Below are positions 29,973 through 33,363 of a stretch of DNA of 33,961 nucleotides, piece by piece. The stretch spans positions 1 to 33,961 of the forward strand of contig JAAYUA010000020.1 in assembly GCA_012517935.1 (NCBI GenBank), read 5' to 3'. Numbering within the stretch: the first letter of the stretch is position 1; each line of letters starts with the position of its first letter. Both the position numbers and the translations under genes were made by a program. The notes beneath the pieces are model-generated. The model saw only the letters and a list, made by a program, of their open reading frames with translations, did not search any database and was not told the DNA's origin. The DNA comes from Acetobacter sp. Its GTDB lineage: Bacteria; Pseudomonadota; Alphaproteobacteria; Acetobacterales; Acetobacteraceae.

Positions 29973-31199
29973 TCACTCTACGGTCTGAAGCTGAAGGGCT
30001 GGGAGGGGATTGATGCGGCGTGAATCGTTGTCACGCATGCGCAGCAGATAGGTTTCGAACAGGGGCACGGTAAAATCTGTTGTGCCGAAAGCAGGGCTCC
30101 AGATCATGCCCTTGCGGATCAATGCGGCTCTGATCGGGGCGACATTTTGCACGCGGACGCCAATTCTGTCGGCGATTTCGCCTGAACGATGGGGGCCGGA
30201 GCCCAGTTCAGCCATGGCGATGCAATAGGCACGTTCGCGTGGCGTCAGGCGTTCGTAGCGCATTCTGAAGAACCCGCTGTCGAGTGCCGTGATGGAAACT
30301 TCCGTGGCGACCCGGACATCGCCGGGCAGAATTTCCGGCCCGTGAGCAACGTTCCATGCGTGGTAGGCCCATTCCTGAATGAAGTAGGGGTAACCTCCGG
30401 TGACGGAGAATACTTCTTCGATGGCTGCCTCGGTGAACGTTACGCCCTCTTTTGCTGCCGGCGTGCGGAGGGCATCGGCGACATCATCGCGTTTCAACGG
30501 GCCAAGCTGCGGGAAATCAAAGAGCCGTTCGGCATAAGAACGGGATTGGCCGGTTTGTGCCACGATGTGAGGCAGGCCAGCACCGGCGAACATGACAGGC
30601 AGGTTTTCCCGTGCCGTTCGATGCAGTGCCATGATCAGAGCGCCCATATCGCGTTCCGAAAGAAACTGGATCTCATCAATACAGAACAGGATGCCCGTTC
30701 CGCGTGCGCGTGCAGCTTCGCCGACTGCGGCAAACAGATCGGAAAGGTCTGCATCCAGATTGCCACTATCGGCGATGCCGGTTTCCGCTTCGAAATCGAG
30801 TTCGATTCGGAAATCCTGATGTTGCAGGCGGATGGTATGAATGAAGCTTTTCAGCACGCGTAGGGCACGCTTCACGTGTGTGCTGAATCTGTCTGCCCTG
30901 TCGAGGGTCAGCATCATCCGGCGCAGGTGAGGGGCCAGAAGCTGTGGCAGTGATGTATATTCGTGGGCTTCGATGAAGCAGGTCTGAAAGCCTGCTTCCG
31001 TCGCCATTTCACGTATCCGCCCCAGGACAACGGTCTTCCCAACTCCCCGCAAGCCCGTCGCGATGAAGCTTCGTGCGCTGCGTCCTTCCAGAAGGCGGCG
31101 AAGCGCGATTTCCGCTGGAGCAAGAAGGTACTGACGTCCTGCAAGCTCCGGAGGTGGAGCGCCCGCTCCGGGGACATAAGGGTTGAGGATGGGGTCCAT
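29973..31199 (-). CDS. AAA/STAND-type ATPase with C-terminal winged helix, within the car operon
   Basis: A 408-residue P-loop ATPase. Walker A is GLRGVGKT (49-56), Walker B is ILFCIDE (170-176), and a sensor-like MFAGAG lies at about 203-208. The C-terminal part (about 315-395: LTPRERAYCIAMAELG, then SGEIADRIGVRVQNVAPIRAALIRKGMI) looks like a winged-helix DNA-binding domain, so the layout resembles archaeal-type ATPases or ORC1/Cdc6. There are no membrane segments. The gene lies 24 nt after carA and 9 nt before carB, so all three should be on one transcript. No clear ribosome site precedes the ATG, so its translation may depend on carA. The function is unknown; a regulatory or mobile-element-derived role is inference. 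Confidence 0.85.
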   Translation of the reverse strand: MDPILNPYVPGAGAPPPELAGRQYLLAPAEIALRRLLEGRSARSFIATGLRGVGKTVVLGRIREMATEAGFQTCFIEAHEYTSLPQLLAPHLRRMMLTLDRADRFSTHVKRALRVLKSFIHTIRLQHQDFRIELDFEAETGIADSGNLDADLSDLFAAVGEAARARGTGILFCIDEIQFLSERDMGALIMALHRTARENLPVMFAGAGLPHIVAQTGQSRSYAERLFDFPQLGPLKRDDVADALRTPAAKEGVTFTEAAIEEVFSVTGGYPYFIQEWAYHAWNVAHGPEILPGDVRVATEVSITALDSGFFRMRYERLTPRERAYCIAMAELGSGPHRSGEIADRIGVRVQNVAPIRAALIRKGMIWSPAFGTTDFTVPLFETYLLRMRDNDSRRINPLPALQLQTVE

Positions 31200-31223: not shown

Positions 31224-32618
31224 TTAGACTTTGCCGTTATGCTGATCGATCAGTTCGACGAAACGTCTGAAAAGATAGAAGCTATCGGACGGGCCTGGGC
31301 TGGCTTCCGGATGATACTGCACGGAGAAAGCTGGCAGTGTATCGGAGGCGATGCCTTCGTTGGAGCCATCGAACAGGCTTTTATGAGTGACACGGACACC
31401 TTCCGGCAGGGAGGATTCGTCGACTGCAAAGCCATGATTCTGGCTGGTGATTTCCACGCGTCCGGTGGAGAGGTCTTTTACGGGCTGGTTCGCGCCGCGA
31501 TGTCCCTGTTGCAGTTTGTAGGTTTTTGCGCCGAGGGCGAGTGCCAGAAGCTGGTGCCCGAGGCAGATACCGAAGACGGGCTTGCCTGCGTCGAGAACAC
31601 CACGAATGGCTGGGACGGCATATTCGGCTGTTGCAGCCGGATCACCCGGACCGTTGGAAAGGAAGACGCCTTCGGGCTGAAGGGCGAGAATTTCTTCGGC
31701 TGTTGCTGTTGCCGGGACAACGGTCACGTCACATCCGGCTGTGGTGAGGCAGCGAAGGATGTTGAGTTTCGCTCCGTAATCAATGGCAACGACCTTGCGA
31801 CTATGCTCGGGCAATGCCTGTGTCGTATCCGGCCATTCCCAAACGGTTTCTGCAAAAGTCCATGGAGCGGCGCAGGTGACTTCCTTTGCCAGATCCATGC
31901 CTTCGAGCCCCGGCCATGCGGAGGCCTGTTCCTTGAGGGCTTCAATGTCGAAACTGCCTGATTCCGGGTAATACAGGACAGCGGTCTGGGGGCCGCCATT
32001 CCTGATCCGCAGGGTCAGCGCCCGTGTATCGATCCCGCAGATACCCGGGACGTTTCTTTCAAGAAGCCATGTGTTGAGGCTTTCCTGGGCGCGCCAGTTG
32101 GCAGGTTCCGTAATGTCATGACGAATGACGAGGCCACGTGCGCTGACGCGCGGGGCTTCATTGTCAGTGCTGTTTGTGCCGACATTGCCGATATGCGGGA
32201 ATGTGAAGGTGATGATCTGACCGGCAAAGGATGGATCGGTCAGTGTTTCCTGATATCCGGTCATGCCTGTTGAGAAGCAGATTTCACCGATAGCGGCACC
32301 GTTTGTATGGGCTCCGAATCCACGTCCCCACAACACTGTGCCATCAGCAAGCACGAGTGCGGCTGTTGCCTTCTCAGGAGCGGATGAGGTTGGGGAACCT
32401 TGGGGCATCTGTGTATCCTGATGAGTGTGTGAAGGGGCGTCCGGCTGCAATTCATCCATCGACAGGCCCGTCGCGCGGGAGACTGCGGGCCAGTGTTTTG
32501 CGGGAATTGCGCGCGCCTGACGCCATTTGCGCACGGCTTCTGTGCCAACGCCCGTAACTTGGGCTGCGCCTTCGGGGCCGCCAAGGCGTTCGATGAGTGC
32601 TTCGATTGATATGGGCAT
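31224..32618 (-). CDS. carA: Carbamoyl-phosphate synthase small subunit with N-terminal helix-turn-helix
   Basis: A 464-residue protein. Residues from about 86 onward are a standard CarA: N-terminal domain (LVLADGTVLWGRG) and a class I glutamine amidotransferase with nucleophile Cys in FGICLGHQLLAL and the HPEASPGPSD motif near 440. Residues 1-60 form an added helix-turn-helix of the Cro/YdaS type (GGPEGAAQVTGVGTEAVRKWRQ, then IPAKHWPAVSRATGLSM), followed by a Pro/Ser/His linker. The full start (32618) has only a weak GAG, whereas the in-frame ATG at 32408 (residue 71) follows AGGA by 7 nt and would give a 394-residue, normal-length CarA. So two forms are possible. It is divergent from yqeY. 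Confidence 0.93.
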   Translation of the reverse strand: MPISIEALIERLGGPEGAAQVTGVGTEAVRKWRQARAIPAKHWPAVSRATGLSMDELQPDAPSHTHQDTQMPQGSPTSSAPEKATAALVLADGTVLWGRGFGAHTNGAAIGEICFSTGMTGYQETLTDPSFAGQIITFTFPHIGNVGTNSTDNEAPRVSARGLVIRHDITEPANWRAQESLNTWLLERNVPGICGIDTRALTLRIRNGGPQTAVLYYPESGSFDIEALKEQASAWPGLEGMDLAKEVTCAAPWTFAETVWEWPDTTQALPEHSRKVVAIDYGAKLNILRCLTTAGCDVTVVPATATAEEILALQPEGVFLSNGPGDPAATAEYAVPAIRGVLDAGKPVFGICLGHQLLALALGAKTYKLQQGHRGANQPVKDLSTGRVEITSQNHGFAVDESSLPEGVRVTHKSLFDGSNEGIASDTLPAFSVQYHPEASPGPSDSFYLFRRFVELIDQHNGKV

Positions 32619-32670
32619 CTACATCATCTCGCTGTGAAATCGTCTCTCTGCTAGCAGTCTTTGTGGGGAT

Positions 32671-32868
32671 TGGGAAGAAAATTCCCATGCTGAATTTTGC
32701 AAAATCGAAACGGAATTTTTTTCCAGGTTCGTTGTCCAGCAAATATCCCTGGCTAGCAGTTCTGAAAAAGAGTGGGCAGGATTTCAGCGGATCTGGCACT
32801 GGTCCGGATGAAGGTGTCGACGCTATATAGTCGGCGACTTTATAAAATCCGGCTTGGAAAATTTTTCC
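32671..32868. promoter_or_regulatory. Three GGAA-N5-TTCC palindromes in the carA/yqeY spacer
   Basis: The 277-bp divergent spacer holds three copies of GGAA-N5-TTCC: 32673-32685 (with longer arms TGGGAA/TTCCCA), 32712-32724 and 32856-32868. A TATAAA at 32841-32846 with TCGACG 18 bp upstream is a plausible yqeY promoter, which would place the third palindrome at the start of transcription. A direct repeat GCTAGCAGT occurs at 32650-32658 and 32752-32760. The pattern suggests a regulator site; the helix-turn-helix CarA is a candidate ligand (inference). Confidence 0.5.
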
Positions 32869-32895
32869 GGGTCCGGTTGCAGGAGGCTTCAGTCC

Positions 32896-33363
32896 ATGTC
32901 CGATACCACGCTACGCGCGCGTTTCTCAGCTGATCTTAAAACCGCGATGAAAGGCGGCGACAAGGAGCGTGTTGCGCTACTGCGCATGATTGGTGCGAAA
33001 CTCAAGGAAACCGACATTGCAGCGCGCCCGAAGGGCATTGAGCAGGTTGGTGAGGACGAAGTGGTGTCGATGCTGCGCGGTATGGCGAAGTCGCGTGCAG
33101 AATCCGCGACTATCTATCGTGAGGGTGGTCGTCCGGAGTTGGCGGAGAAAGAAGAGGCGGAAATTGCGATCATTCGCGACTATCTTCCGCCCGAGATGGA
33201 TGATGCTGCATTGAAGGCCGCGATTGAAGGATTGATTGCCGAAACCGGGGCATCCTCGATGAAGGATATGGGCAAGGTCATGGCAGCATTGAAGGAGAAA
33301 TTCGGCGCATCACTGGATCTTGGACGTGCGAACGGTCAGGTCAAGGCGCTGCTTTCCGCCTGA
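32896..33363 (+). CDS. GatB/YqeY domain-containing protein
   Basis: A 155-residue helical YqeY protein, related to the C-terminal tRNA-binding tail of GatB. Landmarks are LRARFSADLKTAMKGGDKERVALLRMI at the start, EVVSMLRGMAKSRAESATIYREGGR in the middle and the family end ASSMKDMGKVMAALKEKFGASLDLGRANGQVKALL. The role in translation is not settled. The start is ATG 32896 because AGGAGG lies at 32881-32886 with 9 nt spacing. The common follower dnaG is absent here. Confidence 0.93.
   Translation: MSDTTLRARFSADLKTAMKGGDKERVALLRMIGAKLKETDIAARPKGIEQVGEDEVVSMLRGMAKSRAESATIYREGGRPELAEKEEAEIAIIRDYLPPEMDDAALKAAIEGLIAETGASSMKDMGKVMAALKEKFGASLDLGRANGQVKALLSA

Follow-up and report, generated by a model that had tools for sequence, protein, structure and literature searches.

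A Cro-like helix-turn-helix domain fused to the small subunit of carbamoyl-phosphate synthase across Acetobacterales: a predicted autogenous repressor of carAB

In a stretch of 33,961 nucleotides from Acetobacter sp. (assembly GCA_012517935.1, contig JAAYUA010000020.1; hereafter the window), the gene carA, for the small subunit of carbamoyl-phosphate synthase (CPSase), is fused in frame to an N-terminal helix-turn-helix (HTH) domain resembling the Cro proteins of phages. The fused product, HTH-CarA, is probably an autogenous repressor of carAB that is built into the enzyme subunit. This reading is drawn from sequence comparison, namely from the fusion and its conservation, a pair of putative operators upstream, their position, their concentration at carA, their joint absence with the HTH, a partial covariation with the recognition helix, and an internal-start signal. 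Coordinates are collected in Table 1.

The fused open reading frame (ORF) contains no internal stop codon. Its N-terminal region belongs to NCBIfam family NF046037, the "carph-isopro domain" (residues 5-57, 63 bits against a cut-off of 38). The Pfam model YdaS_toxin, PF15943, scores 31.1 bits on residues 1-70 alone (cut-off 30) and 26.3 bits, under the cut-off, on the whole protein, while P22_Cro reaches 23.6 bits on residues 1-70 alone, under its cut-off of 30.2. Residues 1-70 are predicted to fold into five helices, with 10-residue means of the predicted local distance difference test (pLDDT) between 82 and 92 up to residue 50 and a disordered tail. In a Foldseek search with this model, the top PDB folds were Cro of Xfaso 1 and Cro of N15 on operator DNA, at a probability of 1.00 yet with E-values of 0.02-0.05, none below 0.001; Cro proteins also ranked first when PDB was searched with a profile of 38 family members. 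The recognition helix, residues 26-35, carries the motif RKWRQ, which includes Gln34, and RKWR is nearly invariant among the fusions. The remainder of the chain scores 456 bits against TIGR01368, the CPSase small subunit model (cut-off 307.35), over residues 86-458, and is thus a complete CarA. Cys, His, and Glu are the catalytic residues of class I amidotransferases; C352 (in GICLGHQ), H436 and E438 (both in HPE) are invariant in an alignment of 36 fusions. Residues 61-75, between the domains, are disordered in the full-length predicted model. By profiles and alignment, a DNA-binding-type domain and an intact enzyme share one chain, as a first-pass annotation of the window, made from the sequence alone, had proposed in reading a Cro/YdaS-type domain joined in frame to complete CarA.

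The 70-residue N-terminus, on whose conservation in relatives that annotation had made its reading depend, was found in 278 of 299 genomes of the family Acetobacteraceae, representing 97 of 102 genera, and a profile of the domain matched 248 of 250 genomes of the order. The ratio of nonsynonymous to synonymous change (dN/dS) across the HTH, window against six relatives, ranged from 0.10 to 0.22, a seventh pair being saturated. In a named collection of 84,980 species, a search with a peptide pattern gave 433 matching stretches, of which 395 came from relatives; the best 80 of the 433 were CarA fusions throughout, from Acetobacter, Komagataeibacter, Gluconacetobacter, Novacetimonas, Roseomonas-type and Rhodopila-type records, and metagenome bins. 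In a class sample, the HTH profile matched 17 of 190 genomes, three of these within the family. Of the 14 weak matches outside the family, nine were read (L266-L274), and in none of these nine did the fetched stretch contain a CarA ORF. The HTH-CarA fusion is ancient.

Upstream of the fused gene lies a pair of 17-bp palindromes with the consensus TGGGAA-N5-TTCCCA. For operator tests, one locus was taken from each of 76 genera, drawn from the listed loci (best matches first) rather than from all 97 genera with matches; loci from 30 of a set of 32 genomes were added to these, and one locus (L082) was dropped because the pattern used gave no readable fusion. Depending on which of three thresholds is applied, 72, 70, or 66 of the 76 genera have a pair 30-55 bp apart; the corresponding means in Markov-shuffled controls were 3.5, 0.2, and 0.03. 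A site matching 11 or more of the 12 consensus bases occurs in 66 of the 76 genera, where 0.03 would be expected.

The proximal palindrome takes a consistent place in the predicted promoter. Of 65 near-type loci, defined by a short distance from proximal site to gene, 58 have TTG exactly 6 bp 5' of the palindrome (46 of 52 when counted by genus), 39 have TA immediately 3' of it, and 38 have both; 15 of 144 linkers were unparsed in this survey. The 17-bp palindrome would therefore constitute the spacer between a TTGnnn -35 element and a TAnnnn -10 element, in agreement with the Gluconobacter oxydans promoter form ttGnnn/Tatnnn given in PMC5756330. The first in-frame start lies 12-13 nt after the first base of the -10 in 49 of the 65 loci, a distance that implies, given predicted promoters, a leaderless or nearly leaderless mRNA. 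A second class, at longer distance, contains 73 loci, the window included. Here TG at +31 with TA at +34 is found in 47, and the right palindrome arm is predicted to serve as the -35; in the window the presumed -35 is the TTCCCA arm (32676-32671), 17 bp from a predicted extended -10.

In the mechanism that we infer from these patterns, the Cro-like domain, as a dimer like Cro, would bind the two palindromes, and protein bound at the proximal site, between the -35 and -10 or over the -35 itself, would block RNA polymerase, repressing rather than activating. Subunit in excess would lower carAB expression. In many lineages a start within the linker would supply plain CarA for the enzyme. Candidate signals are the balance of free and CarB-bound CarA, glutamine, UMP, or another ligand.

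The internal start in the window is as the first-pass annotation described it, an in-frame ATG behind AGGA that would give a protein of 394 residues; the full-length ATG has no clear Shine-Dalgarno sequence. That annotation had also asked about its conservation, and here the answer is divided. When each genus is represented by one linker, an in-frame linker ATG is found in 49 of 76 genera, and an ATG with a Shine-Dalgarno-like 4-mer in 34, whereas 2000 rounds of codon shuffling of each linker gave a mean of 6.2 for the latter and a maximum of 14; the remaining 42 genera have no such signal. The second start therefore looks like a selected sequence feature in many lineages that is absent from others. 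It is possible, if doubtful, that the internal ATG is instead the leftover start of CarA before the fusion, making no protein, so that HTH-CarA alone exists. The 42 genera without the signal fit that explanation, as do two HTH-less loci (L129, L130), where the homologous Met, behind AGGA, is the apparent start. A relic in a variable linker, however, should have decayed rather than persist so far above the shuffled maximum. A fuller version of the autogenous model, which we offer tentatively, is an order-wide homeostat in which two starts would yield a repressor-enzyme and a plain subunit, and CarB-free HTH-CarA would report excess and shut the operon from the promoter spacer. In most genera the long form would be made from a leaderless or nearly leaderless message, and where a Shine-Dalgarno-driven short form exists, the ratio of repressor to enzyme would follow whichever initiation is favoured.

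The palindromes might serve a separate regulator of carAB, with the HTH on CarA a conserved relic or a domain in some role other than DNA binding. The tie between HTH and sites is comparative, and the covariation described below has exceptions, but the genomic distribution of sites makes this explanation unlikely. In 37 genomes of the window's genus there are 57 perfect sites, 52 at carA and five elsewhere, against five for a reversed control, and each of the 35 HTH-bearing genomes has at least one perfect site at carA. A perfect site occurs nowhere in the other two genomes, G012 and G016. In a family sample of 120 genomes, 115 perfect sites occur in 76 genomes (control, 10); among the 75 sites listed, 53 are in genomes with a known HTH position, and 46 of these are at carA. 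A perfect site is absent from 44 of the 120, since imperfect sites are common. A multi-gene regulator does not explain this concentration at carA, and a relic would not stay conserved over some 100 genera with its RKWR recognition helix almost invariant.

Sites and HTH are also missing together. We re-examined 22 genomes, comprising 20 listed misses of 21, plus G016 and the weak match G315. Three (G012, G089, and G176) have a whole carA without the HTH; in G016, carA starts 18 bases from a contig end, which leaves too little upstream sequence for a judgement, and the rest have no carA match, paralogue-level matches only, or a fragment. No palindrome pair occurs within 350 nt of carA in any of the three, although one 9/12 site, a remnant or chance, remains in the stretch at L130. 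In a CarA tree (bootstrap not settled, L177 absent, HTH-less row L133 mislabelled "T"), the three fall in two lineages; for the lineage of G089 and G176, either HTH loss or original absence may apply.

A further connection comes from residue 34. Gln34 is replaced in five sampled genera, and changes of Gln34 tend to accompany a G-to-C change at operator position 2. With Ser34, g92 (six genomes) and g48 have core sites CCGGAA-N5-TTCCGG or near it; with His34, g115 has TCGGAA-N5-TTCCGC. Taken genus by genus, G predominates at position 2 in 62 of the 64 genera with Gln, and bases other than G predominate in three of the four without it (Fisher p 0.0008, in a table that leaves out five genera with ties and three lacking an exact core). 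This covariation gives moderate support to the HTH acting on the palindromes.

It is distinctly unlikely that the domain activates carA or bridges the two sites as an architectural factor. Start-to-start spacing of the pair is clustered (among 137 loci with a pair, of 144 examined, 38-39 bp in 69 and 44 bp in 22, with minor groups at 32-33 and 48-50 bp), which suggests cooperation between bound dimers, as such a factor might show; yet most near-type loci have the proximal site as their promoter spacer, a position typical of repression. A role for the palindromes as RNA hairpins of the carA leader is extremely improbable and was rejected. A 6-bp stem with a 5-nt loop could form in RNA, but the near-type palindrome, placed between predicted -35 and -10 elements, precedes any transcript, and frequent single-arm changes (CCGGAA..TTCCCA, GCGGAA..TTCCCA) would break the stem.

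Several observations weigh against autogenous repression by HTH-CarA. The distal palindrome of the window is weak, with 8 of 12 consensus bases, and the 47 longer-distance loci with an extended -10 come from only six of 23 genera. When up to two mismatches are allowed, matches in the window's genome number 129, compared with 55 for the reversed control, so that weaker sites elsewhere are possible. The joint absence of HTH and pair rests on two lineages with small genomes. In the covariation, g89 has Ser34 yet retains TGGGAA-N5-TTCCCA, g107 has Thr34 with sites mixed across three genomes, bases other than G prevail at position 2 in two Gln genera, and g48 and g92 are close in the CarA tree and may represent one event. 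Residue 34 has the lowest permutation p (0.001) among variable HTH columns, with residue 22 next (0.0015), but it was picked after looking, and relatedness was only partly controlled. Finally, docking like that of lambda Cro would, we presume, keep residue 34 off the outer bases. Overall, the regulatory role that the first-pass annotation had attached to the fusion is partly supported, through the conserved pair at the carA promoter, its joint absence with the HTH, and the partial covariation with the recognition helix.

Table 1. Features of the HTH-CarA locus, in coordinates of the window
Feature	Position	Strand	Basis
HTH-CarA fused gene, 464 residues	31224..32618	-	ORF reading, profile matches
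Cro-like HTH domain, residues 5-57	32448..32606	-	NF046037 profile, predicted helices, Cro folds
Linker, residues 58-85, variable in sequence	32364..32447	-	comparison of relatives; full-length model
CarA proper, residues 86-458	31245..32363	-	TIGR01368 match
Internal start: AGGA (32419-32416), 7 nt, ATG (32408-32406); 394 residues	32406..32419	-	sequence reading
Predicted extended -10, TGC TAGCAG	32648..32656	-	prediction only
Proximal palindrome TGGGAATTTTCTTCCCA, perfect, predicted operator	32671..32687	-	conserved pair test
Distal palindrome CTGGAAAAAAATTCCGT, 39 bp from proximal	32710..32726	-	consensus match
Third, weaker palindrome-like site CCGGAAAAATTTTCCAA, membership uncertain	32854..32870	-	consensus match
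AAA ATPase ORF, 408 residues, between carA and carB	29973..31199	-	ORF list, family search
carB, large subunit, 1085 residues	26706..29963	-	named from its own sequence

The AAA ATPase ORF is probably co-transcribed with carA and carB. Among 80 named relatives, the ATPase motif follows carA in 15 and carB follows directly in 62, with three unresolved. A minimal upstream reading frame, ATG ATG TAG (32619-32627), abuts the full-length ATG. The third palindrome-like site adjoins a divergent ORF, 32854-33363(+), presumably YqeY-like. The other perfect site in the window's genome (L062) is inside an ORF that we take to encode a HAD-type phosphatase, and is regarded as chance. A wider regulon was considered and rejected, as in the window's genus perfect sites outside carA are no more numerous than in the control (five against five). 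A regulon in G132 was likewise rejected: its 11 sites, counted among the 115 of the family sample, are nine copies of TGGGAAGGTGTTTCCCA (e.g. L302-L306) and two of another 17-mer, and the nine identical palindromes are probably a mobile repeat.

The domain is already catalogued by NCBI as NF046037, of which the window's domain is a member, and scores above cut-off in 44 of 240 genomes of the class. The name "carph-isopro" hints that its curators had encountered it in a carbamoyl-phosphate protein; no mention of the name was found in open-licence PMC text. In the class sample its fusion partners are mostly proteins other than CarA, which in other Alphaproteobacteria mostly have one membrane segment and a coiled coil (L277-L301, except L290 and L297; we presume the names of these partners). 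At L300 it is fused, once, to what we take to be a crotonyl-CoA-reductase-like enzyme. A perfect 6-N5-6 palindrome was found upstream of two of 19 non-CarA fusion loci tested, one of them low in complexity. At L294, an ORF beginning at about 1305 (oriented by match) joins the domain to a presumably NAD(P)HX epimerase-like protein, with a perfect 6-N5-6 palindrome, GTACGTATTTTACGTAC, some 44 nt upstream; this is perhaps a second enzyme carrying its own repressor.

A search of open-licence PMC text, which does not extend to subscription papers, gave no account of the fusion, of the operator, or of the second start. The main text of PMC5756330 (supplements outside scope) contains neither "carA" nor "carbamoyl", and the part of PMC5343134 available names no Acetobacter or Gluconobacter. 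As far as this search reaches, an enzyme-borne autogenous repressor is new for CPSase, and it would be order-wide. If the model is correct, the enzyme at the fork between arginine and pyrimidine synthesis regulates its own operon with no transcription factor besides itself, across the whole of an order to which makers of vinegar and cellulose belong (Acetobacter, Komagataeibacter, Gluconacetobacter), and CarA joins the short list of enzymes known to have a repressor domain built in. The locus would then offer an exactly defined operator open to immediate testing, a series of natural replacements among recognition residues, and what is likely a single gene whose two starts give two functional proteins.

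Among known systems, Cro of N15, P22, and prophage Xfaso 1 resembles the CarA domain in sequence and predicted fold, and has palindromic operators within a promoter, as predicted for CarA, but these are stand-alone phage switches, whereas the CarA domain is fused to a metabolic enzyme. In Escherichia coli, according to PMC6245113, carAB is regulated by ArgR, PurR, RutR, IHF, and PepA, the last a metabolic enzyme that represses carAB as a "trigger enzyme". There the same operon is controlled by separate proteins, while here CarA itself carries the HTH. The comparison with PutA drawn in the first-pass annotation is apt. Trifunctional PutA (PMC5293562) is an enzyme with an N-terminal DNA-binding domain that autogenously represses its own genes, as HTH-CarA is predicted to do, and is the nearest proven case of enzyme-repressor logic. 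PutA, however, is catabolic, binds DNA through a ribbon-helix-helix, and has a proven switch (proline, membrane), while HTH-CarA has a Cro-type HTH on a biosynthetic amidotransferase subunit, a single predicted target operon, and a second start.
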